A stretch of 64,000 bases of DNA from Azospirillaceae bacterium (GTDB taxonomy: Bacteria; Pseudomonadota; Alphaproteobacteria; Azospirillales; Azospirillaceae). A model generated the notes under the pieces. It worked only from the letters and a program-made list of their open reading frames with translations. It had not been told where the DNA came from and did no database searches. How positions within the stretch are numbered: the stretch's first letter is position 1; every line of letters begins with the position of its first letter. Shown here piece by piece: positions 45,419-62,065 of the stretch. Both the position numbers and the translations under genes were made by a program. The stretch lies in contig JAPWJW010000002.1 in assembly GCA_028283825.1 (NCBI GenBank), positions 558,001 through 622,000 of the forward strand, given 5' to 3'.

Positions 45419-45663
45419 GGGCTGCTGAGTTCCAAGGGCGGGATTGGCCCCCTTATGCCACAGGAAGATGTCGGCGATGGAGTCCCGATCACAGCCCGCG
45501 CCCAGCGTCCATGACATAACACGGGCTATTCGGGGGCTGTCGGCCCGGCCCCGGGTGGGGGCAGGGGCGGGGGAAGCAGATCTTTACCCTTCCGTGCCTT
45601 TCGGGCTAGAACGGGCCCGCATCATGTGCAGGAATGCTTTTCTGGATTCCGAAGGATAGGAAA

Positions 45664-46470
45664 ATGGCACAGAAACTCGCCTGGGGCCGCAGTTGGCATG
45701 GGCGCAGTTACGACCTCGGCCGCATGACCCTGGCGGATCTTTGGCGCGCGTACCTGACCTATCCGGCGATCCAGCTGTACGCCGCGTTGGCCGTGGCCGC
45801 CGCGGTCTACGCCGTCGTGGCGCCGGAGGGCATCGCCGCCGGGCATTGGCTGGCGCCGCTGGTCGCCGTGGTGGCGGTCTTCTTCGTCTATCCCATGGCC
45901 TGGTTCTTCATCCACCGCTACATCCTGCACGGCCGCTGGCTGTACCGGATCAAGTGGACGGCCACCCTGTGGAAACGCATCCATTTCGACCACCACCAGG
46001 ATCCCCATCTGCTGGAGGTGCTGTTCGGGTCGCCGGTGAACACCCTGCCGACCATCGCCGGCGTGACCATGCCCATCGGCTACGCCATCGGCGGCTGGCC
46101 TGCGGCGGCGGCGGCCTTGTCCATGGGGCTGTTCCTGACCTGCACCTATGAATTCATCCACTGCATCCAGCACCTGAACTACAAGCCCAGGAACCAGTTC
46201 ATCCAGAAGCTGAAGCGCGATCACCTGATCCACCATTTTCATAATGAGGATACCAACCTGGGTATCGTCAGCTTCACCCCGGACCGGATTTTCGGCACCT
46301 ATTTCGCCTCGGCACGGGACTGTCCGAAAAGCGCCACCGTCTTCAACCTGGGCTATGATGTGGAAGAGGCGCGCCGCTATCCCTGGGTGATGGAGGCGAC
46401 GGGCGCGCCACCGCGCGACCGCCCGCCATCCGCCTTCGCCACGTCCGAGACCAGGGGTACCGCTTCGTGA
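45664..46470 (+). CDS. Membrane fatty-acid hydroxylase/sterol desaturase family, candidate ceramide hydroxylase
   Basis: 268 residues from the ATG at 45664 with AGGA upstream; an ATG at 45634 is less well placed. Four membrane helices surround the eight-histidine di-iron signature: HRYILH (~85), HFDHHQDPH (~110), HCIQH (~170) and HLIHHFHN (~190). The following gene starts inside its stop codon and is a candidate ceramide synthase, so hydroxylation of a sphingoid base or N-acyl chain is the best guess, as for fatty acid 2-hydroxylase or Sur2. The exact position on the lipid is inference. Confidence 0.75.
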   Translation: MAQKLAWGRSWHGRSYDLGRMTLADLWRAYLTYPAIQLYAALAVAAAVYAVVAPEGIAAGHWLAPLVAVVAVFFVYPMAWFFIHRYILHGRWLYRIKWTATLWKRIHFDHHQDPHLLEVLFGSPVNTLPTIAGVTMPIGYAIGGWPAAAAALSMGLFLTCTYEFIHCIQHLNYKPRNQFIQKLKRDHLIHHFHNEDTNLGIVSFTPDRIFGTYFASARDCPKSATVFNLGYDVEEARRYPWVMEATGAPPRDRPPSAFATSETRGTAS

Positions 46471-47597
46471 GTTCGGTCGAGATCATTCCGGTCGCGGGCA
46501 GCGCCCTGCTGGACCGCTTCATCCGGCTGCCGGAACGGCTGCATAAGGACGATCCCCACTACATCGCGCCGCTGCATATGGAGCGGAAGGACGCGCTGAC
46601 GCCCAAGAACCCCTTCTTCGGTTTCGCCGATGTCCAGTTCTGGCTGGCGCGCAAGGACGGCCGGGACGTGGGGCGCATCAGCGCCCAGGTCGACCGCCAC
46701 GCGCTGGAGCGCAACCCCGACGCCCCCGGCCAGTTCGGCATGATCGCGGCCGAGGACGATCCCCAGATCATCAAGGCGCTGGTGGATACCGCCGCCGACT
46801 GGCTGCGCGCGCGTGGCATGAAGCGCATGCAGGGCCCGTTCAACCTCAACATCAATGAGGAGATCGGGCTGCTGGTCGATGGCTTCGATACGCCGCCCAT
46901 GCTGCTGATGGGCCACGACAAAGCCTATCTGGGCCCGCGGCTGGAGGAACAGGGCTTCGCCCGGGAAAAGGACGTCCTGGCCTACCTCTACGACATCACC
47001 CAGGAATTGCCCGCCGGCGCGCGGCGCCTGATCGACCGGCCCCTGCCCAAGGGCCTGATCGTGCGGTCCCTGGACTTCAAGCGCTATGACGACGAGATCC
47101 GGGCCGTCACCTCCATCTTCAACGATGCCTGGCAGGACAATTGGGGTTTCGTTCCCCTGACGGAGATCGAGACAGACCATTTGGCCAAGTCGCTGAAGCC
47201 CCTGCTGCATGCCGACCTGGTGCGCTTTGTCGAATTGAACGGCGAGCCCGTCGGTTTTATCGTCTGCCTGCCCAACCTGAACGAGGCCATCCGTGGCCTG
47301 GACGGCAAGCTGCTGCCCTTCGGCTGGGCCAAGCTGCTGTGGCGCATGAAGGTATCAGGGCTCAAGACCGCACGCGTGCCGCTGATGGGCGTCCGCAAGT
47401 CGGCCTCGCAAGGGGTGATCGGCAGCCTGCTGCCCTTCCTGCTGATCGACGCGGTGCGCAAGTCGGCGGCGGAGAAGGGGTTCCAGCAGATCGAGCTGTC
47501 CTGGATCCTGGAGGACAACCTGCCCATGCGCCGCATCAACGAAAGCCTGGGCGGCGTCGCCTACAAGACCTACCGCTTGTACGACAAGGCGCTTTGA
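46467..47597 (+). CDS. GNAT-fold acyltransferase, candidate bacterial ceramide synthase
   Basis: 376 residues from the GTG at 46467, which overlaps the previous stop (GTGA). There are two GNAT-like halves: N-terminal HKDDPHYIAPLHMERKDALTPKNPFF with WLARKDGRDVGRISAQVD, and C-terminal VRFVELNGEPVGFIVCLPNLN with FQQIELSWILEDNLPMRRINESLGG. Length and shape fit the GNAT-type ceramide synthase (bCerS) of Caulobacter, which N-acylates 3-ketosphinganine. The surrounding serine palmitoyltransferase, acyl ligase and reductase genes support this. Without a database search the bCerS identity is inference; a GNAT fold is well supported. Confidence 0.65.
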   Translation: MSSVEIIPVAGSALLDRFIRLPERLHKDDPHYIAPLHMERKDALTPKNPFFGFADVQFWLARKDGRDVGRISAQVDRHALERNPDAPGQFGMIAAEDDPQIIKALVDTAADWLRARGMKRMQGPFNLNINEEIGLLVDGFDTPPMLLMGHDKAYLGPRLEEQGFAREKDVLAYLYDITQELPAGARRLIDRPLPKGLIVRSLDFKRYDDEIRAVTSIFNDAWQDNWGFVPLTEIETDHLAKSLKPLLHADLVRFVELNGEPVGFIVCLPNLNEAIRGLDGKLLPFGWAKLLWRMKVSGLKTARVPLMGVRKSASQGVIGSLLPFLLIDAVRKSAAEKGFQQIELSWILEDNLPMRRINESLGGVAYKTYRLYDKAL

Positions 47598-47611
47598 TAC
47601 GTCCCCTCAGG

Positions 47612-47685
47612 CGCCGGGCGGCCACATCCGTGGCCTTGGGCTTCCTCAGTTCCCGGTCCGGGACACTCCCCGGGAACTTCCGGCG
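47612..47685 (+). repeat. Structured intergenic repeat, copy A
   Basis: An outer stem CGCCGG (47612) / CCGGCG (47680) encloses two hairpins: GGCCAC-ATCC-GTGGCC (47620-47635) and GTTCCCGG...CCGGGAAC (47649-47677). Copy B at 52697 has the same layout with different but still complementary stems, and shares CCCCTCA before, TTGG...GCTTCCTC between and CTCCCC inside the hairpins. Both copies follow a stop codon set in TTTGATACGT. Confidence 0.75.
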
Positions 47686-47702
47686 GATGCGGTCGCGTCC
47701 TA

Positions 47703-47738: not shown

Positions 47739-48707
47739 TTACGTCAGCCAGCCGGCGGCGCGGTACCAGGCCACGGTCTCGCGGAAGCCTTCCGCCAGGC
47801 CGATGCGGGACGCGTGGATGCGGGCGGGCAGCAGTTCGCCCGGCGCCACCGTCCAGTCGGGGTGCAGGATTTCCCGCGCCTTGCCGTCGGTGAAGATGGG
47901 GGCGGTGCCGCGCAGGGCGCCCCAGCGGGCGGACAGCGTGCCGGCCGCCAGCAGCAACGGTCCGGGAATAGCCCATAGGCGGGGTGGGGCGGTGTGGCCC
48001 ATGGCGCGCGCCGCCTCCCGCATCATGTCGGCCATGGCGTAGCCGGCGGGGTTGGTGTCGGCCAGGGCATAGGTGCCGCCGGTGGGGCCACGTAGGCCCG
48101 CACCAGTGACGGCGACCAGGGCGGCGGCCGCATCGGTGACGTGGATTGCGGCCAGGCGCCCGGTGCCGACCAGCGGTGCCAGCGGACGTCCGGCTGCCTG
48201 GAAGATGGCCAGGGTCTCGCGGTCGCCGGGGCCGTAGATCATGGGCGGCCGCACGATGGTCAACTGTTCGGGCGCATCGGCGTAGACGCGCCGCACCTCC
48301 TCCTCGCCGGCGCGCTTGCTGGCGGCATAATCCGACAATTGCGGTTCGCGGGCGGCGAGGGAGGAGACGAGGATGAAGGGCGCCGCCGGTGCCTGCCGGC
48401 GCAGGCACGTGGCCACCGCCCCGGCGCCGTCCCGGTTGGTCCGCAGGAAGGCGGCCCGGTCACGCGCCTTGATCAGGCCGGCGGCATGGACCAGGGCGTC
48501 GACGCCGTCCGTCAGCCGGGCCAGCGCGCCCGCGTCCTCCAACCCGCCCTGGACGACATCGACGGGCAGGCCGGCCCAAGTGGCCGGATCGGGCGGACGA
48601 CGCGCCAGGACGCGTAACTGTACACCCGAGTCGGCCAAAATCTGGACCAGATGCCCCCCCAGGAACCCCGTCGCCCCCGTGATCGCGACGATCGGCGCGG
48701 CTGTCAT
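47739..48707 (-). CDS. NAD(P)-dependent epimerase/reductase (extended SDR), candidate CerR
   Basis: 322 residues. The Rossmann motif GATGFLGG is at ~10-17. The active-site serine is in FILVSSLAAREP (~112), and YAASK (~127) is the YxxxK catalytic pair. The C-terminal half is substrate-binding and ends with the HASRIGLAEGFRETVAWYRAAGWL helix typical of this group. It follows the fatty acyl-AMP ligase gene by 35 bp on the same strand. In Caulobacter an SDR of this kind (CerR) reduces the 3-keto group of the acylated base, and its gene also neighbours an acyl ligase. The assignment rests on context. Confidence 0.7.
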   Translation of the reverse strand: MTAAPIVAITGATGFLGGHLVQILADSGVQLRVLARRPPDPATWAGLPVDVVQGGLEDAGALARLTDGVDALVHAAGLIKARDRAAFLRTNRDGAGAVATCLRRQAPAAPFILVSSLAAREPQLSDYAASKRAGEEEVRRVYADAPEQLTIVRPPMIYGPGDRETLAIFQAAGRPLAPLVGTGRLAAIHVTDAAAALVAVTGAGLRGPTGGTYALADTNPAGYAMADMMREAARAMGHTAPPRLWAIPGPLLLAAGTLSARWGALRGTAPIFTDGKAREILHPDWTVAPGELLPARIHASRIGLAEGFRETVAWYRAAGWLT

Positions 48708-48742: not shown

Positions 48743-50494
48743 TCACGCCGTCGCGGCTTGGGCCAGCGGCGTGCTCACAGGCTCGAAGAAGCCGTCGAGA
48801 TACATCGCCCGCGCGCGGCTGCGGCTGAGCTTGCCCGAGGTGGTCTGGGGCAGGCTGTGCGGCGGCACCAGCACGATGCGGGACAGGATGCCGTGCCGGC
48901 TGCGGAAGACCTGGGCGATTTCATCGGCCAGCGCGCCGCGGGCGCTCGGGTCGGGGCTGCGGCACTGCACCAGCGTCACCACCTCTTCCTCCACACCGCT
49001 GTCGACCGAGAAGACCGCGACGTCGCCGCTGCGCAGTGCCGCGATCTCATTCTCCGCCGTCCATTCCAGGTCCTGGGGCCACAGGTTGCGGCCATTGACG
49101 ATGATCAGGTCCTTGGCCCGGCCGGTGATGACGATCTGGTCGTCCAGCAGGTATCCCAGGTCGCCGGTATCCAGCCAGCCCGCCGAGTCCATGACGCGGG
49201 CGGTTTCCTCCGGCGCGCCGTAATAGCCGGTCATCAGGCTGGGGCCGCGCACGAAGATGCGGCCGATGCTGCGCGGCGGCTGGGGCTTGCCGGCGGCGTT
49301 GCGCACCTCAAGCTCATGTTCCGGCAGGATGTGTCCGCACAGGACGAAGGCGCGGGCGCGGTCGCCCTCCCGCTGCGGCGGCACGGCGCGGTGCTCGTTT
49401 TCCAGGATGACGCTGTCGACCACGTCCAGCCGCACGCCATGGCCCTTGGACGTGAAGTTCAGGGCCAGGGTCGCCTCCGCCATGCCGTAGCTGGGGACGA
49501 AGGCGTTGCCGCTGAAGCCGTTGGCGGCGAAGCGCTTGGTGAAATTGGCCAGGACGTTGGGGCGGATCATGTCGCCGCCGATGCCGGCGCTGCGCCAGGT
49601 CGACAGGTCGATGCCGGTGGTCGACAACGTCTCCGCGCGGCGGGCGCACAACTCATACCCGAAGGACGGGCTGTAGGAGATGGTGCCCTTGTTGCGGCTG
49701 ATGAGATCCAGCCAGATCAGGGGCCTACGGGCGAAATCCCGGGTGGGCAGGGTGTCCACCGACATCTGGCAGGCCAGGGGGATCAGCAGGAAACCCACCA
49801 GCCCCATGTCATGGTAGAACGGCAGCCAGGACACACAACGGTCGCCGTCGGTGATCACCAGGCCGCTGCGTCCGACATGGGCGGCGTTGCTGAGGAAGGC
49901 GCGGTGCGTGACCGCGATGCCCATGGGGAAGCGTGTGCTGCCGGACGAGAATTGCAGATAGCTGGTGCCGTCCAGCGACTGCTGCGGCAGGTCGCCGGTG
50001 ATGGGCGCCACCGTCGCCAGAAAGTCCAGGGTGCCCGACATCTTCAGGTCCAGGCCCTGCACCGCCTGCGACAGCCAATCCTCCAGCATGGCCGGCCCGA
50101 AGGCGGCCGTGGCGCCGCAGCTTTGCAGCATGCGGCGGATGTGGGCGATGTAGGCGTCCTTGCCGCCGAAAGCGGCGGGCAGGGGCAAGGGGGCCGGCAC
50201 CAGCCCGGCATACTGGCAGGCGAAAAAGGCGCGGACGAAGTCGCCGTCGCTTTCGGCGATCAGGCCGACGCGCTCACCCGGTTCCAGTCCGGAGGCCAGC
50301 AGACGGCGGGCGAGGTCGATCGCCTGGTCCCGCAGATCGTGATAGGAAAGCGCCTCGGTAAGGACGCCCTTCCCGGAATAAAAATTAAAGCCCGTCGGGC
50401 CCTGGGCGGCATAGTCCAGCGCGTCGGCGATGGACGTGAAGTCCGCATAGCGCGTGGGAAGTCCCGGATGGTGGGAGGGCGTAGGAGACAGCAT
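48743..50494 (-). CDS. Fatty acyl-AMP ligase
   Basis: 583 residues. The adenylation motifs are present: YLQFSSGSTRFPMGIAVTHRAF (A3, ~180), SWLPFYHDMGLVGFLL (~225), SYGMAEATLAL (A5, ~325), GWLDTGDLGYLLDDQIVITGRAKDLIIVNGRNLWP (A7-A8, ~440-475) and TTSGKLSRSRAR (A10 lysine, ~557). The FYHDMGL motif and overall shape point to fatty acyl-AMP ligases, which load acyl chains onto carrier proteins, rather than to CoA ligases. A dedicated carrier protein gene lies in this locus at 56272. The likely role is to supply acyl-ACP to the serine palmitoyltransferase or ceramide synthase. Confidence 0.85.
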   Translation of the reverse strand: MLSPTPSHHPGLPTRYADFTSIADALDYAAQGPTGFNFYSGKGVLTEALSYHDLRDQAIDLARRLLASGLEPGERVGLIAESDGDFVRAFFACQYAGLVPAPLPLPAAFGGKDAYIAHIRRMLQSCGATAAFGPAMLEDWLSQAVQGLDLKMSGTLDFLATVAPITGDLPQQSLDGTSYLQFSSGSTRFPMGIAVTHRAFLSNAAHVGRSGLVITDGDRCVSWLPFYHDMGLVGFLLIPLACQMSVDTLPTRDFARRPLIWLDLISRNKGTISYSPSFGYELCARRAETLSTTGIDLSTWRSAGIGGDMIRPNVLANFTKRFAANGFSGNAFVPSYGMAEATLALNFTSKGHGVRLDVVDSVILENEHRAVPPQREGDRARAFVLCGHILPEHELEVRNAAGKPQPPRSIGRIFVRGPSLMTGYYGAPEETARVMDSAGWLDTGDLGYLLDDQIVITGRAKDLIIVNGRNLWPQDLEWTAENEIAALRSGDVAVFSVDSGVEEEVVTLVQCRSPDPSARGALADEIAQVFRSRHGILSRIVLVPPHSLPQTTSGKLSRSRARAMYLDGFFEPVSTPLAQAATA

Positions 50495-50809: not shown

Positions 50810-51937
50810 ATGCAGAAGGGCAAAATCCGTATCGCCATCGCGGGGATCGGCAACTGTGCGAGCGCGTTGATCCAGGGCATCCACTACTACACGGCGGAAC
50901 GATGCCGTGAGGGTGTGGTTGGCCTGATGCACCGTGAGATCGGCGGCTTCCTGCCGTGCGATATCGAGGTCGTGGCCGCGTTCGACGTTGATGCCCGCAA
51001 GGTCGGCACGGATGTGCACCGCGCCATCTTCGCCAAGCCGAACTGCACCAAGATCTTCCAGGCCGAGGTCCCCGACAGCGGCGTGACGGTGAAGATGGGC
51101 CAGGTGCTGGATGGCATTTCCGAGCACATGGCCGACTATGCCGATGACCGGACCTTCATCCGCGCCGACGCGGTGGAACTGACCCAGGCGGAAATCGTCG
51201 CGGAACTGAAGCGCAGCGGCGCCGAGGTACTGCTGAACTACATGCCGGTGGGTTCGGAACAGGCCGCGCGCTTCTACGCCGAATGCGCGCTGGAGGCCGG
51301 TGTCGCCTTCATCAACAACATGCCGGTGTTCATCGCCAGCAATAAGGCCTTCGCCGACCGCTTCAAGGCGAAGAACCTGCCCATCGTCGGCGACGACATC
51401 AAGTCCCAGGTGGGCGCCACCATCACCCACCGCGTGCTGACCGACCTGTTCGCCAAGCGCGGCGTGAAGCTGCTGCGGACCTACCAGCTGAACACCGGCG
51501 GCAACACCGACTTCCTGAACATGAAGAACCAGAGCCGCCTGGTTTCCAAGAAGACCTCGAAGACCGAGGCGGTGCAGGCCGTGGCGCACAAGCGCCTTGA
51601 GGATGAGAACATCCACGTCGGCCCCAGCGACTATGTTCCGTGGCAGAACGACAACAAGCTGTGCTTCATCCGCATGGAAGGCCACCTGTTCGGTGACGTC
51701 CCCATGGACATCGAGCTGCGCCTGTCGGTCGAGGACTCGCCCAATTCCGCCGGCGTGGTCATCGACATGATCCGCTGCTGCAAGCTGGCGCTGGACAACG
51801 GCATCGGCGGCATCCTGGAAGGCCCCAGCGCCTACTTCTGCAAGCATCCGCCGGTGCAGTACACCGACGACGATGCCTACCAGATGACCGAGACCTTCAT
51901 CCGTGGCAACACGGTGAAGCTCGCCGTCGCTAAATGA
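50810..51937 (+). CDS. ino1: myo-Inositol-1-phosphate synthase
   Basis: 375 residues. The NAD-binding start is IRIAIAGIGNCASALIQGI (~6-24). Family segments are VLLNYMPVGSEQAARFYAECALEAGVAFINNMP (~135-167), the core IVGDDIKSQVGATITHRVLTDLF (~187-209), LRTYQLNTGGNTDFLNM and the active-site region SVEDSPNSAGVVIDMIRCCKLAL (~305-327). Length is that of the bacterial/actinobacterial type. It converts glucose-6-phosphate to inositol-1-phosphate. Its stop overlaps the next start (ATGA at 51934), which couples it to a nucleotidyltransferase that would use the product. Confidence 0.95.
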   Translation: MQKGKIRIAIAGIGNCASALIQGIHYYTAERCREGVVGLMHREIGGFLPCDIEVVAAFDVDARKVGTDVHRAIFAKPNCTKIFQAEVPDSGVTVKMGQVLDGISEHMADYADDRTFIRADAVELTQAEIVAELKRSGAEVLLNYMPVGSEQAARFYAECALEAGVAFINNMPVFIASNKAFADRFKAKNLPIVGDDIKSQVGATITHRVLTDLFAKRGVKLLRTYQLNTGGNTDFLNMKNQSRLVSKKTSKTEAVQAVAHKRLEDENIHVGPSDYVPWQNDNKLCFIRMEGHLFGDVPMDIELRLSVEDSPNSAGVVIDMIRCCKLALDNGIGGILEGPSAYFCKHPPVQYTDDDAYQMTETFIRGNTVKLAVAK

Positions 51938-52650
51938 AGTGCCTGATCGTCGCGGCCGGGCAGGGTACCCGGCTGCGGGAGCGGGGGGCGTCAAAGCCCC
52001 TCATTCCGATCAAGGGCAGCCCGCTGATCGAACGCGTGATCACGCAGGCCCACAGCGCCGGTATCAATGAGTTCGTGGTGGTCAGCGGCTATCGCGGCGC
52101 GGACCTGCGGGCGGCGCTGGACGAATTGGCGGCGCGCATCGGTGTGGCCGTCACCCACGTCATCAATGATGAATGGGAACGGGCCAATGGCGTTTCCGTC
52201 CACAAGGCCAAGGCCGTGCTGACGGAACCCTTCCTGCTGACGATGTGCGACCACCTGGTCGATCCCGGCATCTTCCAGGCCCTGATGGCCCTGCAGCCGG
52301 AACCGGGCACGGTCACCCTGGCGGTGGATTTCAACCTCGACCGCCCGCTGAACGATCCGGAGGACGTCACCCGCGTGAAGTGCGTGGACGGCCGGATCGA
52401 GCATATCGGCAAGGTGATCCGCGACTTCAACGCCTTCGACACCGGCGTCTTCCTGTGCACGCCCGGCATGTTCGCGGCGCTGGAGGAGGGGCAGTCCAAG
52501 GGCGACGACAGCATCTCGGGCGCCATGAACGTCCTGGCGGGCTGGAAGAAGGCCCACGTCCTGGACATCGGTGAGAAGATCTGGATCGACGTGGATGATC
52601 CCGCCGCCTTCGATAAGGCGGAAAAGCTTCTGGACGCCGGGCAGCTTTGA
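51934..52650 (+). CDS. Inositol-1-phosphate cytidylyltransferase-like nucleotidyltransferase
   Basis: 238 residues. The nucleotide-binding start is KCLIVAAGQGTRLRERGASKPLIPIKG (~2-28, GxGTR...KP). The rest matches what I recall of the archaeal IPCT domain closely: NGVSVHKAKAVLTEPFLLTMCDHLVDPGIF (~71-100), IGKVIRDFNAFDTGVFLC (~152-169) and a late WIDVDDPAAFDKAEKLL. It would make CDP-inositol from CTP and inositol-1-phosphate. The gene is translationally coupled to inositol-phosphate synthase and is followed by a CDP-alcohol phosphotransferase, the other half of the fused archaeal IPCT/DIPPS protein. Another phospho-headgroup is possible. Confidence 0.75.
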   Translation: MKCLIVAAGQGTRLRERGASKPLIPIKGSPLIERVITQAHSAGINEFVVVSGYRGADLRAALDELAARIGVAVTHVINDEWERANGVSVHKAKAVLTEPFLLTMCDHLVDPGIFQALMALQPEPGTVTLAVDFNLDRPLNDPEDVTRVKCVDGRIEHIGKVIRDFNAFDTGVFLCTPGMFAALEEGQSKGDDSISGAMNVLAGWKKAHVLDIGEKIWIDVDDPAAFDKAEKLLDAGQL

Positions 52651-52655
52651 TACGT

Positions 52656-52688
52656 GCGGCATTTGATCGTGATCCGCTCAAATGCCGC
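52656..52688. terminator. Hairpin after the cytidylyltransferase gene
   Basis: GCGGCATTTGA pairs perfectly over 11 bp with TCAAATGCCGC across an 11-base loop, starting six bases after the stop codon. It could end or weaken transcription before the phosphotransferase gene at 52900. Confidence 0.6.
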
Positions 52689-52696
52689 CCCTCAAT

Positions 52697-52769
52697 CGCC
52701 GGGCGCGACCATCCGGTCGCTTGGCTTCCTCGCTTTCCAGTCCGCCATGCTCCCCGGAAAGCTCCGGCG
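52697..52769 (+). repeat. Structured intergenic repeat, copy B
   Basis: The outer stem CGCCGG (52697) / CCGGCG (52764) encloses GCGACC-ATCC-GGTCGC (52705-52720) and GCTTTCC...GGAAAGC (52732-52762). Compared with copy A at 47612 the loop ATCC and outer stem are the same, while both inner stems have changed on both sides and still pair. Confidence 0.75.
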
Positions 52770-52899
52770 GCCCCGGTCGGGGCCTATTAAGGATGCGTGG
52801 GAAAGCCCGCGCCAAGCTTCCGGCTGATCAGAATCATGGCGCCGGCAATGGGTTCCGGTTAAACCGGGCCGGCGCCATTTCTCTCAAACCCGGGCACCC

Positions 52900-53778
52900 A
52901 TGCACATCACCGAACCGGTCAAGCGGACCTCCGAAATCGAGGAGGTCACAAACCTGTATGTCATCCATCCCATCTCAAGCTGGCTGACGCCCCGGTTCGC
53001 CCGCCTGGGCATACACCCCAACGCGGTGTCCCTGGCCGGCATGGCCTTCGGCATCACCGCCGGCATCGCCTATTCGCACTACCAGAACCTGGGCTGCACC
53101 CTGGCGGCCTTCGTCCTGATGGTCGCCTGGCACGTCATGGACGGTGCCGATGGGCAACTGGCGCGCCTGACCAATGCCCAGTCCGAGACCGGCAAGATCC
53201 TGGACGGCATCTGCGACTACGTCACCTTCATCGCCGTCTATGTCGGCCTGGCCATCACGCTGACGGCGGAACAGGGCGCCTGGGTGTGGATTGTCATCGT
53301 GGCAAGCGGCGTCGCCCACGCGGTCCAGTCCGCCGCCTATGAGATGCAGCGCCAGTGCTACAATTTCTGGGGCTGGGGCCGCAAGTCGGCCGAACTGGCC
53401 AAGCTGGACGCCCCGGCGGCGCACCGGCCCGGCATCCTGGGCGGCCTCTACCGCCTGTACCTGCGCCTGCAGTACCTGACCACCGGCGTCACCGTCGGCT
53501 TCCATGACGAACTGGCGCGGGCCCTGGCCGCGGACGCCGCGCGCGCACCCCGCATCCGGGAGGCCTACCGCGCCGTCTTCGCCCCGTCGGTGCGGCGCTG
53601 GTCCATCCTGTCGGCCAACTACCGCACGCTGGGCATCTTCATCGCCGCCGCGGCCGGCCGGCCGCTGCTGTACTTCTGGTTCGAGCTGATCGGCTTCAGC
53701 CTGATCCTGGCCGTGCTGCTGTCGCGCCAGGCGGCGCGCAGCGCCCGCTTCCTCAGGGACTTGGAACGGGTGGCGTAG
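52900..53778 (+). CDS. CDP-alcohol phosphotransferase, candidate inositol-phosphate transferase
   Basis: 292 residues with about six membrane helices. The family catalytic motif D-x2-D-G-x2-A-R-x8-G-x3-D-x3-D is complete: DGADGQLAR followed by G, D and D in GKILDGICDY (~85-108). The N-terminal WLTPRFARLGIHPNAVSLAGMAFGI resembles the start of the archaeal DIPPS domain. In that family the enzyme moves the phospho-inositol of CDP-inositol onto an alcohol. The sphingolipid genes around it suggest ceramide as acceptor, which would give a phosphoinositol ceramide; this is inference. Its 3' end overlaps the convergent LptG gene by 26 bp. Confidence 0.8.
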   Translation: MHITEPVKRTSEIEEVTNLYVIHPISSWLTPRFARLGIHPNAVSLAGMAFGITAGIAYSHYQNLGCTLAAFVLMVAWHVMDGADGQLARLTNAQSETGKILDGICDYVTFIAVYVGLAITLTAEQGAWVWIVIVASGVAHAVQSAAYEMQRQCYNFWGWGRKSAELAKLDAPAAHRPGILGGLYRLYLRLQYLTTGVTVGFHDELARALAADAARAPRIREAYRAVFAPSVRRWSILSANYRTLGIFIAAAAGRPLLYFWFELIGFSLILAVLLSRQAARSARFLRDLERVA

Positions 53779-54871
53779 CGGGCACCGGGCGCACCCGGTG
53801 CTCGCGCTGATACAGGTAGGCCGCCAGCCCGATGAGGATGAACGACGGCCCCAAGGCCGTCACCGCCGGGTTCAGGTTCAGCAGCAGGTCCAGGCGGTTG
53901 GAGATTTGCTGTGTCAGGGAAAAGACGATGCCGATGACGGCGCCGATGGTGATCTGCTGTCCGGTGTTCTGGGAGCGCGGCGGCCCGAACACGAAGGGCG
54001 CGGCGATCAGCGCCATGGCCAGCATGGTCAGCGGCAGGCCCAGCTTTGCCCACAATTCCTGCACATAGCGCACGGCGTACTGGCCCTGCCGGCTCATCTC
54101 GCGGACATAGCGGAAGAGGTCGGTGGGCGACATGTTCTCCGGCGCCGGCATCAGGTCCTGGACGCGCTTGCCCGGCAGGAAGGAGGCCCAGGACAGGGTG
54201 TCCAGGTGCTCGGTCTGGAAACGCTGGGCGACGATGGTCTTGCGGGTGACATCGCGTAGCTGCCAGGGACCGTCGGCCTGGATTTCCGCGCGGTCGGCAT
54301 GGATGAAGGTCTCCAGCCGTCCGTCCGCGGAAAAGCCATAGACGTTGACGCCGCGCAGGACGTTCTTGCTCTCGATCGAGCGCACGTTGAGGTACTGCCG
54401 GGCGCCCCCGGCCCAGAAGCTGTCACCGCTGTCGGCCAGGGGCGAGTCGGCCAATGCCGCGGCCCGTGAGGTCAGCGCCAGGTGCTGCGCCGGCGGGATG
54501 ATGAACTGCGCGATCACGAACAGCACCAGCAGGACCGGCGGCAGGATCTTCAGCACCGATCCGATGATGCGCATCTCGGATTGGCACAGGGCCCGCATGG
54601 CGGTCACTTCGGAATCCTTGGCCAGGCCGCCCAGGGACAGCAGGGTCCCGATCAGCATGGCTACCGGCGCCACCTGCAGGACACGCGCCGGGATGGTCAG
54701 CGCCACGTAGGCCACGGCGTTGATGACGCGGTACTGCCCCTCGCCCACGGATTTCAGCTGCTCCACGAACTCAAGCAGGCTGAACAGGGCCGCCAGGCCG
54801 GCGGTGACCATCAGGAAGGCCTTGAGGGCGGCGCCGCCGATGTAACGGTCAAACTGCGTCATGTGGATCAT
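53753..54871 (-). CDS. lptG: LptG/YjgQ-family permease in the sphingolipid locus
   Basis: 372 residues from the ATG at 54871, which overlaps the LptF stop (ATGA). The N-terminal FDRYIGGAALKAFLMVTAGLAALFSLLEFVEQLK is the family start. Three helices, a periplasmic beta-jellyroll (~130-265) and three helices follow; a conserved segment is GEGQYRVINAVAYVALTIPARVLQVAPVAMLIG. LptF/LptG form the inner-membrane part of the LptB2FG machine that pulls lipopolysaccharide from the membrane. No lptB, lptC or other LPS gene is near. The setting suggests a second set for sphingolipid export, but it could be the only copy. Confidence 0.85.
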   Translation of the reverse strand: MIHMTQFDRYIGGAALKAFLMVTAGLAALFSLLEFVEQLKSVGEGQYRVINAVAYVALTIPARVLQVAPVAMLIGTLLSLGGLAKDSEVTAMRALCQSEMRIIGSVLKILPPVLLVLFVIAQFIIPPAQHLALTSRAAALADSPLADSGDSFWAGGARQYLNVRSIESKNVLRGVNVYGFSADGRLETFIHADRAEIQADGPWQLRDVTRKTIVAQRFQTEHLDTLSWASFLPGKRVQDLMPAPENMSPTDLFRYVREMSRQGQYAVRYVQELWAKLGLPLTMLAMALIAAPFVFGPPRSQNTGQQITIGAVIGIVFSLTQQISNRLDLLLNLNPAVTALGPSFILIGLAAYLYQREHRVRPVPATPPVPSP

Positions 54872-56007
54872 ACCGTACGTTCGCGCTCCGGCGCTTCCAT
54901 GCGCCCGAACAGGCGCTTGGCCAGCGTCCGGACGCGGAACTCGACGTTCCACAGGGGCCAGTAGATGGCGGTGATCAGCAGCATGGCCAGCAAGGCCGGC
55001 GCCCACCAGATGCCGGGGGTGGCGCCGATGGTGCCGTGCTGCACCCAGGTGCGGGCCGACGTGCACAGCAGGTAATAGCCGGAATAGACCAGGATGGCGG
55101 TGCCGAAATTGGCGTACTTGCCGCCCTGCCGGGGGCGGACGCGGCTGAGCGGCACGCCCAGCATGCCCAGCAGCAGGGTGGACAGCGGGGTGGACAGGCG
55201 CCACTGGAACTCCGCGATGTCGTCCGCGTGGTCGGATGCGGCCAGCAGGGCGCTGCTGATGCCCGTGGCGCTGTACTCCTGCGGGGTGATGTTGCGGTTG
55301 CTGGGGTCCAGGGTGATGTTCTTCACATCCATCATCCGGTCCGCCACCTCATTATCCCGTCCCAGGAAATAGACGTGGGCATCATCCAGGCGCACGTTCG
55401 ACCCGCCGTCCGGCTTCTGCGGCAGGGCGCGGGCGGTGCGGGCCAGGATGATGTCGGTGCGCTTGGGATGCTGAAGCTGGATGAAGACGTCCTGCGCCGG
55501 CCCGCCCAGTCCCTGGCGGTTGGGGAAGAAGATCACCCGATTGCCGTGCTGGCTTATGTAGAAGGTACCGGATTCCATGGCATCGACGTTCATCGACAGT
55601 TGCGCCCGGCGGGAAATATCGTGCGACTTTTCGTAAGCCCACGGCCGGATGAACAGCGACACCAGCAGCACCACCGTGGCCAGCGCCGCGGACAGCAGGA
55701 AGACGCTGCGCAGCACGATGGCGGGGGAGATGTTCAGCGCGTACATGGCGGTGAACTCGGAATCGCCATACAGCTTGCCGAAGGACATCACCACCGAGAT
55801 GTAAAGCGAGATCGGCACCAGGACTTCCAGCGCGATCAGCAGCTTAAGGCCGATCAGCTCGGCGATTGCGCCGGTGGGCAGCAGGCCGTTGACGGCGTCG
55901 GACAGCAGGCTGGCGGTACTGTAACCGGCGAAAAGGGCGACCAGGATGCCCAGCACGGCCGCCAGCGGCTTCGCGATTTCGCGGATCAGGTAGCGTTCGA
56001 TGATCAC
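54868..56007 (-). CDS. lptF: LptF/YjgP-family permease in the sphingolipid locus
   Basis: 379 residues. The family start is MIIERYLIREIAKPLAAVLGILVALFAGYSTA, followed by the coupling region PISLYISVVMSFGKLYGDSEFTAMYALNISP (~65-95), a periplasmic jellyroll (~130-270) and the C-terminal helices beginning RLSTPLSTLLLGMLGVPLSRVRPRQGG. It is coupled to lptG by a four-base overlap. The pair lies between the phospho-headgroup genes and the ACP-serine palmitoyltransferase operon, and is transcribed away from the latter. Confidence 0.88.
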   Translation of the reverse strand: MIIERYLIREIAKPLAAVLGILVALFAGYSTASLLSDAVNGLLPTGAIAELIGLKLLIALEVLVPISLYISVVMSFGKLYGDSEFTAMYALNISPAIVLRSVFLLSAALATVVLLVSLFIRPWAYEKSHDISRRAQLSMNVDAMESGTFYISQHGNRVIFFPNRQGLGGPAQDVFIQLQHPKRTDIILARTARALPQKPDGGSNVRLDDAHVYFLGRDNEVADRMMDVKNITLDPSNRNITPQEYSATGISSALLAASDHADDIAEFQWRLSTPLSTLLLGMLGVPLSRVRPRQGGKYANFGTAILVYSGYYLLCTSARTWVQHGTIGATPGIWWAPALLAMLLITAIYWPLWNVEFRVRTLAKRLFGRMEAPERERTV

Positions 56008-56526: not shown

Positions 56527-57762
56527 ATGGCTCTATTTGACAAGTATGCACCGTTATTGGCCCAGTACGAGAGTCTGGAGGCCGCCGGGCACAATCCCTT
56601 CAACGTCACGTTCGACAACGTTGTCTCGCCGACCGAGGCGATGATCGGCAATCGACGTATTCTGCTGCTGGGCACCAACAATTACCTTGGCCTGACCTAT
56701 GACCCGGCGGTGATCGCTGAGTCGGTGAAGGCTATGGAAAGGTTGGGTGCCGGCACCACCGGGTCAAGGGTGGCCAATGGCAGCTATGGCGGCCATCGGC
56801 AGCTGGAGCGGTCGCTGGCCGACTTCTACGGCCGCAAGCACGGCATGGTGTTCTCGACGGGGTACCAGGCCAACCTGGGCATCCTGTCGGCCCTGGCCGG
56901 CAAGGATGACCACCTGATCCTGGATGCCGACAGCCACGCCAGCATCTATGACGGCTCGCGCCTGGGCCATGCCCAGGTCACGCGCTTCCGCCACAACGAC
57001 CCCGACGACCTGGACAACCGCCTGCGGCGCCTGGCCGACGTGCCCGGCGACAAGGTCATCGTCGTCGAGGGCATCTATTCCATGCTGGGCGACACCGCGC
57101 CGTTGCGTGAGTTCGTCGAGGTGAAGCGCAAGTGGGGCGCCTACCTGGTGGTGGACGAGGCGCACTCCCTGGGTGTCCTGGGCCGCACCGGCCGCGGCCT
57201 GGCCGAGGCCGCCGGGGTGGAGGATGAGGTCGACTTCATCGTCGGCACCTTCTCCAAAAGCCTGGGCGGCATCGGCGGCTTCTGCGTCAGCGACATGGAC
57301 GGTTTCGACATCCTGCGCGTGGCCAGCCGGCCCTACATGTTCACCGCCTCGCTGCCGCCCGCCGTCGTGGCGGCGGTGACCGAGGCGCTGAACCAGTTGC
57401 GCCACCGGCCGGCCCTGCGCCAGCAGCTGCTGGACAACGCCCGCCGCTTCCACGGCGGCCTGGTCGATTTGGGCTTCACCGTGGGGCCCGAGGCCAGCCC
57501 GGTGGTGTCGGCCATCATGCCCGACCCGAAGACGGCCTTCACGTTCTGGAGCCGCCTGCTGGACGCCGGCCTGTACGCCAACGTCAGCCTGCCGCCGGCC
57601 ACGCCCAAGGGCCTGGCCCTGCTGCGGTCCAGCGTCAGCGCCGCCCACAGCCGCAGCCAGATCGACCTTGCCCTGTCGCTGTTCGCGGAGACGGGCCGGG
57701 CCATGGGCCTCATCCCGGCGGAGGCGGTCGCCCCCCCCGAGATGCGCGTGGCGGCTCAGTAA
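56527..57762 (+). CDS. spt: Serine palmitoyltransferase-like PLP enzyme
   Basis: 411 residues, alpha-oxoamine synthase family. Features are NNYLGLTYDP (~50), GSRVANGSYGGHRQLERSLADFYGR (~78-102), a substrate-side DADSHASIYDG, VVDEAHSLGVLG (~210) and the PLP lysine in GTFSKSLGGIGG (~244). The related enzymes KBL, BioF and HemA share this fold, but the adjacent ACP and the ceramide-type genes favour serine palmitoyltransferase, which joins serine and an acyl thioester to 3-ketosphinganine, the first step of sphingolipid synthesis. Confidence 0.88.
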   Translation: MALFDKYAPLLAQYESLEAAGHNPFNVTFDNVVSPTEAMIGNRRILLLGTNNYLGLTYDPAVIAESVKAMERLGAGTTGSRVANGSYGGHRQLERSLADFYGRKHGMVFSTGYQANLGILSALAGKDDHLILDADSHASIYDGSRLGHAQVTRFRHNDPDDLDNRLRRLADVPGDKVIVVEGIYSMLGDTAPLREFVEVKRKWGAYLVVDEAHSLGVLGRTGRGLAEAAGVEDEVDFIVGTFSKSLGGIGGFCVSDMDGFDILRVASRPYMFTASLPPAVVAAVTEALNQLRHRPALRQQLLDNARRFHGGLVDLGFTVGPEASPVVSAIMPDPKTAFTFWSRLLDAGLYANVSLPPATPKGLALLRSSVSAAHSRSQIDLALSLFAETGRAMGLIPAEAVAPPEMRVAAQ

Positions 57763-58344: not shown

Positions 58345-59481
58345 GTGCGTGAGGTCGTCATCTTCCGGAACAACCTGTTCCGGATTTCCGAAACCTTCAT
58401 CACCGAACAGGCGCAGCGGCTGCGGCGGCACACGCCCCTGTACCTGGGGCGCCTGCGCTACGGCCCGGCGCCCGAGGGCGCCGATTCCCTGGCCTTGCGC
58501 GATCTGTGGCCGCACTGGCCCTGGCCGCCCATCGGCTGGCAACTGCTGAGCCGCGACCCCGCCCCCTATCTGCGCCTGCTGCGCGGCCGGCACCCCGCCC
58601 TGATGCACGCCCATTTCGGCATCGACGGCGTTTACGCCCTGCCGGTGGCGCGGGCGCTGGGCGTGCCGCTGGTCACCACCTTCCACGGCTTTGACGCCAC
58701 CCTGTCCACCGCCGCCCTGATGCGCTCGCCCGCCTGGATGAACTATCCCCTGTTCCGGGGTCGCCTGGCGCGGCAGGGGGCGTTGTTCCTCTGCGTCTCC
58801 AACTTCATCCGCGACCAGGTGCTGGCCATGGGTTTCCCGGCCGAACGCACCCGCGTGCACTACATCGGCGTCGACAGCCGCGCGGTGCGGGTCCGCCCGG
58901 TGGGGGAGGAGACGCCGACCATCCTGCACGTCGCCCGCCAGGTGGAGGGCAAGGGCGCGGAGTATCTGATCCGGGCCTTCGCGCGGATCGCGGACCGGCA
59001 TCCCACGGTGCAACTGCACCTCATCGGCGACGGCCCCCTGCGCACGGCACTGCAGGCGTTGGCGGGATCGCTGGGACTGGCGGAGCGCATCCGCTTCCTG
59101 GGCGCGCTGCCGCATGGCGAGGTGCTGGCCCACATGCGGCGGGCGGCCATGCTGGTCCTGCCCAGCGTGCGCGCCGCCAACGGCTGGGTCGAGGGCCTGG
59201 GCATGGTGATGCTGGAGGCGGCGGCCACCGGCGTGCCGGTGATCGCGTCGCGCATCGGCGGCATCCCCGAGGTCATCGTCGAGGGCCAAACCGGCCTGCT
59301 GGCGCCGGAGCGGGCGCCGGAGGCGCTGGCCCGCTGCATGGCAACCCTGCTGGACGATGGTGACCTGCGTCACCGCATGGGCGCGCAGGCGCGGGCCCAT
59401 ATCGACGCGCACTTCGACATTCACCGCCAGACGGCGCTGCTGGAGGATTTGTATGACGAGGCGCTTGGCCATGCGCGGTGA
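58345..59481 (+). CDS. Family 4 glycosyltransferase
   Basis: 378 residues from the GTG at 58345, with AAAGGGA upstream. GT-B fold: N-terminal VIFRNNLFRISETFITEQAQRL and ALMHAHFGIDGVYALPVARAL; C-terminal ILHVARQVEGKGAEYLIRAF (~192), HLIGDGPLR and the nucleotide-sugar-binding EGLGMVMLEAAATGVPVIASRIGGIPEVI (~290-318, E-x7-E). It is followed after 63 bp by a radical SAM gene. The acceptor could be the ceramide headgroup or another lipid; sequence does not decide. Confidence 0.87.
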   Translation: MREVVIFRNNLFRISETFITEQAQRLRRHTPLYLGRLRYGPAPEGADSLALRDLWPHWPWPPIGWQLLSRDPAPYLRLLRGRHPALMHAHFGIDGVYALPVARALGVPLVTTFHGFDATLSTAALMRSPAWMNYPLFRGRLARQGALFLCVSNFIRDQVLAMGFPAERTRVHYIGVDSRAVRVRPVGEETPTILHVARQVEGKGAEYLIRAFARIADRHPTVQLHLIGDGPLRTALQALAGSLGLAERIRFLGALPHGEVLAHMRRAAMLVLPSVRAANGWVEGLGMVMLEAAATGVPVIASRIGGIPEVIVEGQTGLLAPERAPEALARCMATLLDDGDLRHRMGAQARAHIDAHFDIHRQTALLEDLYDEALGHAR

Positions 59482-59544: not shown

Positions 59545-60633
59545 ATGACTTCGACGATCGACACCGACACCGCCCAGCTTGAGGCCCTTCCGTCCGACGG
59601 CCTTCCGGCCGGTACGCCCGAAGGCCGGCCGGGCCGCCTGGAAAACCTGGCGGCCGGCCTGCGTTTCGCCGCCCGCGCCATCGGGCAGCGCTATACGCCG
59701 CTGCTGGCCCAGGTGGTGGTGACGCGCCGCTGCAACCTGGCCTGCGGTTATTGCAACGAGTACGACGACTTCTCGCCGCCCGTGCCGCTGAAAGACCTGA
59801 TCGCCCGCGTCGACCATCTGGCCAAGCTGAAGACCGCGTCCATCACCTTCACCGGGGGGGAGCCGCTGCTGAACCCCCATTTGGACAAGGCGGTGCGCTA
59901 CGCCCGGTCCAAGGGCATGATCGTCACCACCATCACCAACGGCTTCCGCCTGACCAAGGATTGGATCGACAGGCTGAACAACGCCGGCCTCCAGGGGATG
60001 CAGATCAGCATCGACAACCTTGAGCCCGACGACATATCGATGAAGAGCTTGAAGTCGGTCGAGGGCAAGCTGGAACTGCTGTCCAAGCACGCGCTGTTCA
60101 AGGTCAACGTCAACTCCGTCCTGGGTGTGACGGGGGAACGGACGCAGGACGTGATCACGGTGGCGGAGACGGCGGCCAAGTACGGCCTGCAGCATTCCGT
60201 GGGCGTGCTGCACGACGGCAGCGGCCTGCTGAAGCCGCTGAGCCCGGCGCAGATGCAGGCCTATGAGCGGGTCACCGAGATTTCGCCGTCCATGGTGCAC
60301 AGCCTGAACTATTGGCTGTTCCAGAAGAACCTGATGAACGGCAAGGGCAACGACTGGAAGTGCCGCGCCGGCGCCCGTTACCTCTACGTCACCGAGGACG
60401 GCCGGGTGCATTGGTGCTCACAGCAGCGCGGATATCCCAACAAGCCGCTGCTGGACTACACGGTCGAGGACATCAAGCGCGAGTACCACACCGAAAAGGG
60501 CTGTGCCGCGACCTGTACCCTCAGCTGCGTGCACCAGATGAGTATGTTCGACCGGCGGCGCCAGGCCATCCCGGACCCGACGACGCCAGCCACCACGGTG
60601 GCTCACCCGGTGGGTGCGAAGCCGGTCAGCTGA
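59545..60633 (+). CDS. Radical SAM enzyme with SPASM-like C-terminus
   Basis: 362 residues. The [4Fe-4S]-SAM motif is CNLACGYC (~64-71), then TFTGGEPLLNP (~100) and SIDNLEPDDIS. The C-terminal quarter has five more cysteines (WKCRAG, HWCSQ, KGCAATCTLSC), as in SPASM/twitch domains with extra clusters. A basic N-terminal segment (~35-55) could lie on the membrane. It is not HpnH-like in its motif. Its place between a glycosyltransferase and a flippase operon suggests modification of a lipid or sugar, but no substrate can be named. Confidence 0.8.
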   Translation: MTSTIDTDTAQLEALPSDGLPAGTPEGRPGRLENLAAGLRFAARAIGQRYTPLLAQVVVTRRCNLACGYCNEYDDFSPPVPLKDLIARVDHLAKLKTASITFTGGEPLLNPHLDKAVRYARSKGMIVTTITNGFRLTKDWIDRLNNAGLQGMQISIDNLEPDDISMKSLKSVEGKLELLSKHALFKVNVNSVLGVTGERTQDVITVAETAAKYGLQHSVGVLHDGSGLLKPLSPAQMQAYERVTEISPSMVHSLNYWLFQKNLMNGKGNDWKCRAGARYLYVTEDGRVHWCSQQRGYPNKPLLDYTVEDIKREYHTEKGCAATCTLSCVHQMSMFDRRRQAIPDPTTPATTVAHPVGAKPVS

Positions 60634-62065
60634 CCGGCTTCTTCTCCCGGTCGTAACGGAACAGACCGGCATAGGTGGCCGCCATCGCCACCACCACGAT
60701 GGCGACGCCGACCATGGGTTGGCCGGCGCCCGGCAGCAGGCGCACGGCCCCGACCACCGCCGCCATGACGGCGACGCCGACAGCCGGCAGCACGAAGGTG
60801 CGGGCCACACCGCCGGCCTTGATGCCCCAGGTCCGCTCCAGATAACGCCCCCCCCAGATCAGCAAGGGCGGGTAGATCGCCAGCCACACGGCCGAAACGG
60901 CGATGATGCCGCTTGCCGCCGGCAACAGCACGCCCACGGCGGCGATGCCCAGGGTCAGCAGGGTCAGGGTGGTGGCCGACAGCCGTGCTGCCAGGCCCGG
61001 CCGGCCCGATGCCATCATCAGGGGCGTCAGCATTTGCGACATGGCGCGCAGCAGGGCGGCACCCGCCAGCAGCTTCAGAGGCAGGGCGGCCCCGGCATAG
61101 CTGCCGCCGTGGTCGTCGTGGATCAGGGTGGTCAGCGGATCGGCCGCCAGGATCAGCCCCACCATCAGCGGGGCGGTCAGCAGGGCCAGGCGGCGCAGCG
61201 ACCAGGTCAGCGCCTGCGTCAGGCCGGCCTTGTCCCCCGACAGGCGGGCGAACACGGGCAGGGCGGTGCGGTTGATCAGGGTGCCGACCGCCATCACCGG
61301 TTCCATGGCGATGTCGAAGGCGACGCGATACAACGCCAGGGGGGCTGTGCCGTAGAACCAGCCGACCAGCAGGAAGTCGATGTTCTTGAAGATTTGCTCG
61401 AACAGATTGACGGCGGCGGCGCGCGTGCCGAAGCGGGTCAGGTGCCGGATGTCCGCCCGGTCGAAATGCAGGCCGGGGCGGAAGGGGCGCGCGACGGTGG
61501 CGCCGATCAGGGTGTAGAGGCCGCTGGCGACATAACCGATGACCAGGGCCCAGGCGCCGGCCCCCAGGGCGGCCAGGGCCAGCCGCGTCAGGGCGGCCCC
61601 CAGGGTGGAGGCTACGTTGATGATGGCGATGCGCTCATACCGCAGGTCGCGGTTCAGCAAGGCCAGCGGGATCACGGCGCCGGCGACGATGGGCTGCTTG
61701 GCCGCGATGGCGACGAAATAGGCCGCCATGCCGGACACGCCGTACAGCGCGCCGATGCCGGGGGCGGCCAACAGGGTCAGGCCGCCCATCGCCAGGGATG
61801 CGACCAGGATGAACCAGAACAGGCTGTCCAGTTCGCGCTTGGCGACGGATGGCGCCTGCAACAGCGCGTCGCCTGTCCCTAAACCGTTGAAGGCCTCCAC
61901 CACCATGCCGACCGACATGACCAGGGACGCCACACCCACCTGCTGTTTGCTGAGGAAACCCAGCACCGCCAGGATGGTGGTGAAGTCGATGACCTTGGCC
62001 AGGACGGTGGCGCCGCCCAGCCAGTTGAAGCCGCGGCGCAGATGGCGCTGATGATCGGCGCTCAC
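60626..62065 (-). CDS. Polysaccharide/lipid flippase of the MOP superfamily
   Basis: 479 residues from the GTG at 62065, which overlaps the stop of the upstream glycosyltransferase (GTGA); the frame is open further upstream but only as a shadow of that gene. The start RRGFNWLGGATVLAKVIDFTTILAVLGFLSKQQVG is typical of Wzx-like exporters, followed by twelve to fourteen helices, including LFEQIFKNIDFLLVGWFYGTAPLALYRVAFDIAMEP (~205-240). It would flip a lipid-linked glycan across the inner membrane. Its 3' end overlaps that of the convergent radical SAM gene by 8 bp. Confidence 0.85.
   Translation of the reverse strand: MSADHQRHLRRGFNWLGGATVLAKVIDFTTILAVLGFLSKQQVGVASLVMSVGMVVEAFNGLGTGDALLQAPSVAKRELDSLFWFILVASLAMGGLTLLAAPGIGALYGVSGMAAYFVAIAAKQPIVAGAVIPLALLNRDLRYERIAIINVASTLGAALTRLALAALGAGAWALVIGYVASGLYTLIGATVARPFRPGLHFDRADIRHLTRFGTRAAAVNLFEQIFKNIDFLLVGWFYGTAPLALYRVAFDIAMEPVMAVGTLINRTALPVFARLSGDKAGLTQALTWSLRRLALLTAPLMVGLILAADPLTTLIHDDHGGSYAGAALPLKLLAGAALLRAMSQMLTPLMMASGRPGLAARLSATTLTLLTLGIAAVGVLLPAASGIIAVSAVWLAIYPPLLIWGGRYLERTWGIKAGGVARTFVLPAVGVAVMAAVVGAVRLLPGAGQPMVGVAIVVVAMAATYAGLFRYDREKKPVS

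Follow-up and report, generated by a model that had tools for sequence, protein, structure and literature searches.

A 64,000-nucleotide stretch of a 7.16-Mb Azospirillaceae genome (hereafter the window; contig JAPWJW010000002.1, positions 558,001 to 622,000) contains a three-gene cassette, at window positions 50810-53778, that encodes a myo-inositol-phosphate synthase (MIPS), a nucleotidyltransferase (NT) and a CDP-alcohol phosphotransferase (CAPT) and lies within a ceramide-type locus. The best reading of this cassette, to which we give a probability of about 0.7, is that CDP-inositol and ceramide would be converted to inositol phosphoceramide and CMP. The sequences support CDP-inositol well as the donor. 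We infer the chemistry of the individual steps and, most of all, the acceptor, taken from the genomic context to be ceramide rather than diacylglycerol (DAG). The original prediction for this DNA had proposed the same pathway, and the open reading frames of its three plus-strand genes proved to be exactly placed, with family searches identifying them as MIPS, NT and CAPT. Its outline of an inositol-activating cassette in a ceramide locus was right, while the origin that it assigned to CAPT was not borne out by the tree described below, and the novelty of the route was overstated.

In the proposed pathway, MIPS would convert glucose-6-phosphate to L-myo-inositol-1-phosphate. NT would couple this product to CTP, forming CDP-inositol and releasing pyrophosphate, and the membrane enzyme CAPT would then transfer inositol phosphate from CDP-inositol to the primary hydroxyl of ceramide and release CMP, with no phosphatidylinositol (PI) step. 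Ceramide would be supplied by the neighbouring genes for serine palmitoyltransferase (SPT), CerR, bCerS and acyl-AMP ligase, and LptF2/LptG2, perhaps together with the flippase, would carry the product toward the outer membrane. The stereochemistry of MIPS is established; since the phosphate of L-myo-inositol-1-phosphate would be retained, the headgroup is predicted to have the opposite handedness to the eukaryotic one (1D-myo-inositol-3-phospho-ceramide). If true, this handedness would be a fingerprint separating the CDP-inositol route from the eukaryotic route by chemistry alone, and the direct transfer would bypass PI, distinct from the fungal and plant route, in which an AUR1-type inositol phosphorylceramide synthase uses PI as donor.

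NT resembles inositol-1-phosphate cytidylyltransferases

Judged by its sequence, NT is a CTP:inositol-1-phosphate cytidylyltransferase (IPCT)-like enzyme. It matches NTP_transf_3 (3.5e-16), and its top NCBIfam model is that of the IPCT/DIPPS fusion (NF041135, 6.9e-35). The score of 121 bits is below the cut-off of 580 bits of this model, which spans the full fusion, NT representing the first half; we therefore call NT IPCT-like and keep it outside the fusion family. The predicted motifs were verified (N85-G86-x-S88, M104-x-D106-H107, D169-T170-G171 and W217-x-D219-x-D221), and the active-site residues R13, K21 and D106 are all present. A structure-based search, as the original prediction had suggested, returned IPCTs as the nearest solved structures among the matches listed, with sugar nucleotidyltransferase folds scoring almost as high. 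At 11 flagged positions, NT agrees with both 2xme and the Thermococcus sequence (L104) at nine, and with 4jd0 at four.

MIPS ties the cassette to inositol

MIPS matches PF01658 (3.9e-35) and scores 431 bits against TIGR03450, below the cut-off of 638; it also matches 1gr0, the inositol-3-phosphate synthase of M. tuberculosis. Of the closest NT clade, 11 members (window included) have at least 1 kb of upstream sequence, and in 10 of them a MIPS gene lies next to NT, the exception being L058. MIPS also adjoins NT in 12/12 loci fetched from the Novosphingobium genus. Furthermore, MIPS and NT are fused in frame in six distinct other genomes from several lineages (L017, 3427-5304; L070, 6894-8720; L023, L024, L025 and L075). 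Two of these (L070 and L075), metagenome-assembled genomes (MAGs) labelled Marinimicrobia, have a separate CAPT opposite the fusion and contain bCerS. At least eight further genomes have NT joined in frame to a CAPT. Within the phylum Bacteroidota, L202 and L206 have a CAPT-MIPS-NT operon with a MIPS of another family (PF07994 plus PF01658); L203 and L207 also carry CAPT and NT, and the CAPTs of these four loci, which may conceivably be from Rhodothermia, are 42-45% identical to that of the window.

In the wider NT clade, a largely Myxococcota branch showed no MIPS in the stretches examined, so that inositol is not proved for the clade as a whole. Several of these loci (L085-L101, mostly Myxococcota) nevertheless have a CAPT nearby.

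CAPT belongs to a clade of separate phosphotransferases

CAPT is a class I CDP-alcohol phosphotransferase by its match to PF01066 (7.2e-16), its family fold and the full catalytic motif, which we verified as D81xxD84GxxAR...G98xxxD102xxxD106. NT and CAPT had been proposed to be the separated halves of an IPCT/DIPPS fusion. The resemblance of NT to the IPCT half held, but the window CAPT falls in a 25-row clade of separate CAPTs (support 97/84), whereas 15 fused CAPTs form a clade of their own (98/95). CAPT as a detached DIPPS half was rejected on this ground. The CAPTs of the 'alternative' inositol-lipid cluster of Bacteroides and Prevotella share the 97/84 clade as the sister of the window CAPT. 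The tree kept two stray PgsA-like rows (L052_sep_12274 and L018_fused_18260) and carries a long-branch warning; its alignment (A2) left out L059, which has one stop in the CAPT stretch.

Ceramide genes accompany the cassette

The ceramide-type surroundings were confirmed by family searches, which found SPT, a fatty acid hydroxylase, a GNAT N-acyltransferase, an epimerase and a fatty acyl-AMP ligase. We take the N-acyltransferase to be bCerS and the epimerase to be CerR; these names, as well as CpgD-like below, draw on synteny and published work rather than on the Caulobacter sequences. The hydroxylase, bCerS, CerR-like and ligase genes form one half-cluster beside the cassette, and LptF2, LptG2, SPT, a DUF2141 protein, a GT4 glycosyltransferase, a radical SAM protein and a flippase form the other. 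The ceramide backbone genes are thus in the same genome as the cassette, with SPT above its cut-off and bCerS, CerR and the ligase as neighbours. The arrangement is not due to chance, as two relatives in the genus (L027 and L030) retain the gene order and Acidocella aromatica (L053) has almost all of it.

Among 82 genomes of the family, 25 have bCerS and six have NT; bCerS is present in 6/6 genomes with NT against 19/76 without it (p 5e-4). The seventh member of the genus, G349, has neither. A draw of 289 genomes from the class contained 40 with bCerS and 10 with NT (E up to 1e-15), with bCerS in both near-NT genomes and in none of the eight with a distant NT. Across the family and scan genomes, bCerS was found in all 17 tested genomes with a separate CAPT, a count that includes G373 (the genome of L059); the search left out L056 and L090. 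The NT genomes that showed no such CAPT comprise 12 without bCerS, G374 with a weak 25% match, and G246, a short contig, with bCerS. The association of separate CAPT with bCerS has a Fisher p of 6e-7, with G246, G181 and G228 taken in and kinship ignored. No bCerS was found in the tested NT-CAPT fusion genomes (G016, G228, G229 and G378).

Named organisms with related loci include, besides A. aromatica, Gluconacetobacter liquefaciens (L054), Acidomonas methanolica (L061), an Elstera MAG (L059), Novosphingobium pokkalii (L090), Novosphingobium sp. SG919 (L099) and Sphingomonas parapaucimobilis (L213). Such counts are lower bounds, the contig scan having been confined to the best 80 of its 363 relatives. 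In a draw of 119 genomes from the genus of Novosphingobium sp. SG919 (G382), 75 carry a related NT.

A probable exchange of headgroup modules

The family has 19 genomes with bCerS but no NT; we fetched the ceramide loci of 10, and two of these stretches stop short of SPT. A Cpg-type phosphoesterase (PF00149) and a lipid kinase (PF00781) are present in 10/10 of these loci, a Cpg-type CAPT in 9/10 and a CpgD-like NT within 20 kb in 3/10. None of the phosphoesterase, the kinase and the Cpg-type CAPT was found in the window or in seven cassette loci; contig ends truncate several cassette loci, so that gene absence there is weak evidence. The cassette therefore looks like a headgroup-module swap on a common ceramide core, which suggests that bacterial ceramide loci exchange whole headgroup cassettes, of a CDP-glycerate type and a CDP-inositol type.

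A GT4 gene beside SPT was found in 7/8 inositol-cassette loci against 0/10 Cpg-type loci, eight of which reach SPT, and a radical SAM gene in 6/8 against 0/10. The distribution of GT4 suggests a glycosylated headgroup, and therefore a glycosylated inositol phosphoceramide. We tentatively propose, as a possibility with the odds against it, a bacterial counterpart of the glycosyl inositol phosphoceramides of plants and fungi, in which a one-step transfer would be followed by decoration of the inositol by GT4, perhaps with the radical SAM protein, and export by LptF2/LptG2. The genome has four LptF/LptG matches, of which two, a second LptF/LptG pair, are at this locus; according to excerpts of a study on Caulobacter, such second copies probably carry sphingolipids there (PMC11324152).

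Alternative acceptors and substrates

Several observations weigh against the best reading given above. The acceptor of the comparable transferase in Rhodothermus marinus is reportedly dialkylglycerol. Gluconacetobacter (L054) and Acidomonas (L061) showed no ceramide gene in the stretch examined, and the bCerS proteins elsewhere in their genomes are only 40% and 34% alike. The bCerS count given above excludes several carriers of this CAPT type (L090, L202, L203, L206, L207, L213 and L215-L217), and NT is not nested among the thermophile IPCTs in the NT tree. The best NCBIfam models of CAPT are archaetidylinositol-phosphate (AIP) and PI-phosphate (PIP) synthases, which use CDP-lipids (54.7 and 43 bits). 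The two folds nearest to the CAPT model process no lipids, and the model is without the extra C-terminal transmembrane helices of eukaryotic lipid-acceptor enzymes (PMC4634129). Two weak PAP2_3 proteins occur elsewhere in the window genome (29.9 and 24.4 bits) and therefore leave room for an AUR1-like exchange, in a search that is not discriminating, with 10/14 control genomes above the cut-off. Finally, for the alternative cluster, a route through CDP-inositol is predicted in excerpts of Heaver et al. (2022, PMC9246714), where DAG is the proposed acceptor and a transfer follows later.

This proposal for the homologous Bacteroides cluster, the sister position of its CAPTs, the reported dialkylglycerol acceptor in Rhodothermus and the two PAP2_3 proteins favor an alternative in which CAPT would place inositol phosphate on DAG or alkylglycerol to give PI, ceramide being no acceptor or receiving its headgroup later from PI through a further transferase. 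We consider it unlikely: the window CAPT has no HAD gene beside it, unlike those of B. finegoldii (L216), Prevotella (L217) and Parabacteroides (L215), bCerS accompanies every tested separate CAPT while G349 has neither NT nor bCerS, and the cassette occupies the place of the relatives' ceramide headgroup module.

It is very improbable that CAPT is instead a PIP synthase acting on CDP-diacylglycerol and inositol-1-phosphate, with NT as a bystander. Its best models would fit such an enzyme, but the scores are far under the cut-offs (43 of 170 bits for PIP and 54.7 of 180 bits for AIP synthase) and, in the structure-based check that had been called for, the fold is nearer to CDP-alcohol users than to CDP-DAG-dependent enzymes among the matches listed; on these two grounds a CDP-DAG-dependent PIP synthase was rejected. 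Furthermore, NT is tied to both MIPS and CAPT, fusions included, and no PgpA-like PIP phosphatase is among the annotated cluster genes.

We also give little credence to an NT that activates a different substrate, either a sugar phosphate, in line with the close scores of the sugar nucleotidyltransferase folds, or phosphoglycerate, as does CpgD, a cytidylyltransferase of the same superfamily within the ceramide locus for ceramide diphosphoglycerate synthesis in Caulobacter (PMC12275187). In the NT tree, from which L133 and L142 were dropped for stop codons, the CpgD-like rows form a separate clade (100/99), and the eight compared differ at the residues shared with archaeal IPCTs, with 0/11 matches at the flagged positions. 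MIPS lies beside the window NT but near none of 15 CpgD-like loci in the stretches examined (1.5 kb flanks for 12). On these three points a CpgD-type CDP-glycerate enzyme was rejected. Least probable is the soluble solute di-myo-inositol phosphate of hyperthermophiles, which was rejected on the CAPT clade and the bCerS pattern, fusion genomes included, and sits poorly with the ceramide and LptF2/LptG2 context, even though NT and CAPT are in the same enzyme classes as IPCT/DIPPS.

Relation to known systems

For the action of a CDP-alcohol phosphotransferase on ceramide, the insect ceramide phosphoethanolamine synthase is a precedent. In R. marinus, a CDP-inositol-dependent synthesis of inositol phospholipids is said to have been described by Jorge, Borges and Santos in 2015, reportedly with mention of alphaproteobacterial homologues. 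The donor and a transferase moving inositol phosphate onto a lipid alcohol would be common to both systems, while the window genes lie within a ceramide cluster. For CDP-inositol as headgroup donor, Jorge et al. 2015 is the reference given in excerpts of Heaver et al. (PMC9246714). The claim of a different route thus stands in that the donor would be CDP-inositol and not PI, but CDP-inositol lipid routes are already known (reportedly, in Rhodothermus) or predicted (in Bacteroidota), and the chemistry of the locus is therefore a new combination of known steps. Titles and opening lines of abstracts in the open-licence literature yielded no CDP-inositol:ceramide route in Alphaproteobacteria.

The alternative cluster of Bacteroides and Prevotella likewise combines MIPS, an NTP transferase and a CAPT, but with an added HAD hydrolase; its route is described in excerpts of PMC10191378 as predicted, not characterised. 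Its NTs (three compared) are without the IPCT residues and only 21-22% identical to the window NT, and in its CAPTs (L215, L216 and L217) the fourth motif aspartate is shifted by one residue. Given these differences, the chemistry proposed for that cluster may differ. The loci of Bacteroides, Prevotella, Parabacteroides and S. parapaucimobilis were taken from records labelled as plasmids. As given in excerpts of Heaver et al. (PMC9246714), the characterised B. thetaiotaomicron route (BT_1522-1526) proceeds through PI-phosphate, and phosphoinositol dihydroceramide is made by two species without the BT cluster, one of which, B. vulgatus, carries the alternative cluster. The same product class is expected from this route and the AUR1-type route, both of which differ from the window in their use of PI or PI-phosphate. 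The same excerpts report that N. acidiphilum contains a phosphoinositol-dihydroceramide-like lipid for which no genes were known. The cassette and its surroundings would provide candidate genes for this lipid and, for Alphaproteobacteria, a small set of genes behind an inositol sphingolipid.

Archaeal and thermophile IPCT/DIPPS enzymes (NF041135; 2xme, 4mnd and 4jd0) share with NT the fold and, for the archaeal enzymes, most signature residues, but the window genes are separate, the CAPT comes from another clade and there is no soluble-solute context. The Cpg pathway of Caulobacter, according to excerpts of PMC11324152, similarly has cytidylyltransferase headgroup genes in a ceramide locus with LptF2/LptG2. 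It differs in using CDP-glycerate and a ceramide kinase (PMC12275187), and CpgD-like genes have no adjacent inositol synthase in the stretches examined.

Genes of the window

Table 1 Features of the inositol cassette and its flanks.
Feature	Positions	Strand	Evidence and remarks
Fatty acid hydroxylase-like protein	45634..46470	+	PF04116 4.3e-19
bCerS-type N-acyltransferase (GNAT)	46467..47597	+	PF00583 4.8e-05; homologues in ceramide loci
CerR-like NAD-dependent epimerase/reductase	47739..48707	-	PF01370 1.3e-21
Fatty acyl-AMP ligase, ceramide locus	48743..50494	-	NF006624 850 bits, cut-off 600
MIPS, myo-inositol-phosphate synthase, actinobacterial type	50810..51937	+	375 aa; TIGR03450 2.6e-129; 1gr0 4.6e-111
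NT, CTP:inositol-1-phosphate cytidylyltransferase-like	51934..52650	+	238 aa; 4-base overlap with MIPS
NT-CAPT spacer	52651..52899	.	249 bp
CAPT, proposed CDP-inositol:ceramide inositolphosphotransferase	52900..53778	+	292 aa
LptF2 homologue	53753..54871	-	PF03739 3.4e-72; start inferred from LptG2 overlap
LptG2 homologue	54868..56007	-	PF03739 6.9e-56
Serine palmitoyltransferase (SPT)	56527..57762	+	NF047599 666.7 bits, cut-off 500
GT4 glycosyltransferase	58345..59481	+	PF00534
Radical SAM protein, possible further tailoring	59545..60633	+	PF04055 2.4e-21
Flippase (Polysacc_synt)	60626..62074	-	PF13440 1e-54; start not fixed

The spacer between NT and CAPT is far longer in the window than in five genus relatives, where it measures 6-21 bp. 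Within it are a 14-nt hairpin and a segment of about 100 bp that is 73% alike to positions 47603-47702, directly after bCerS.

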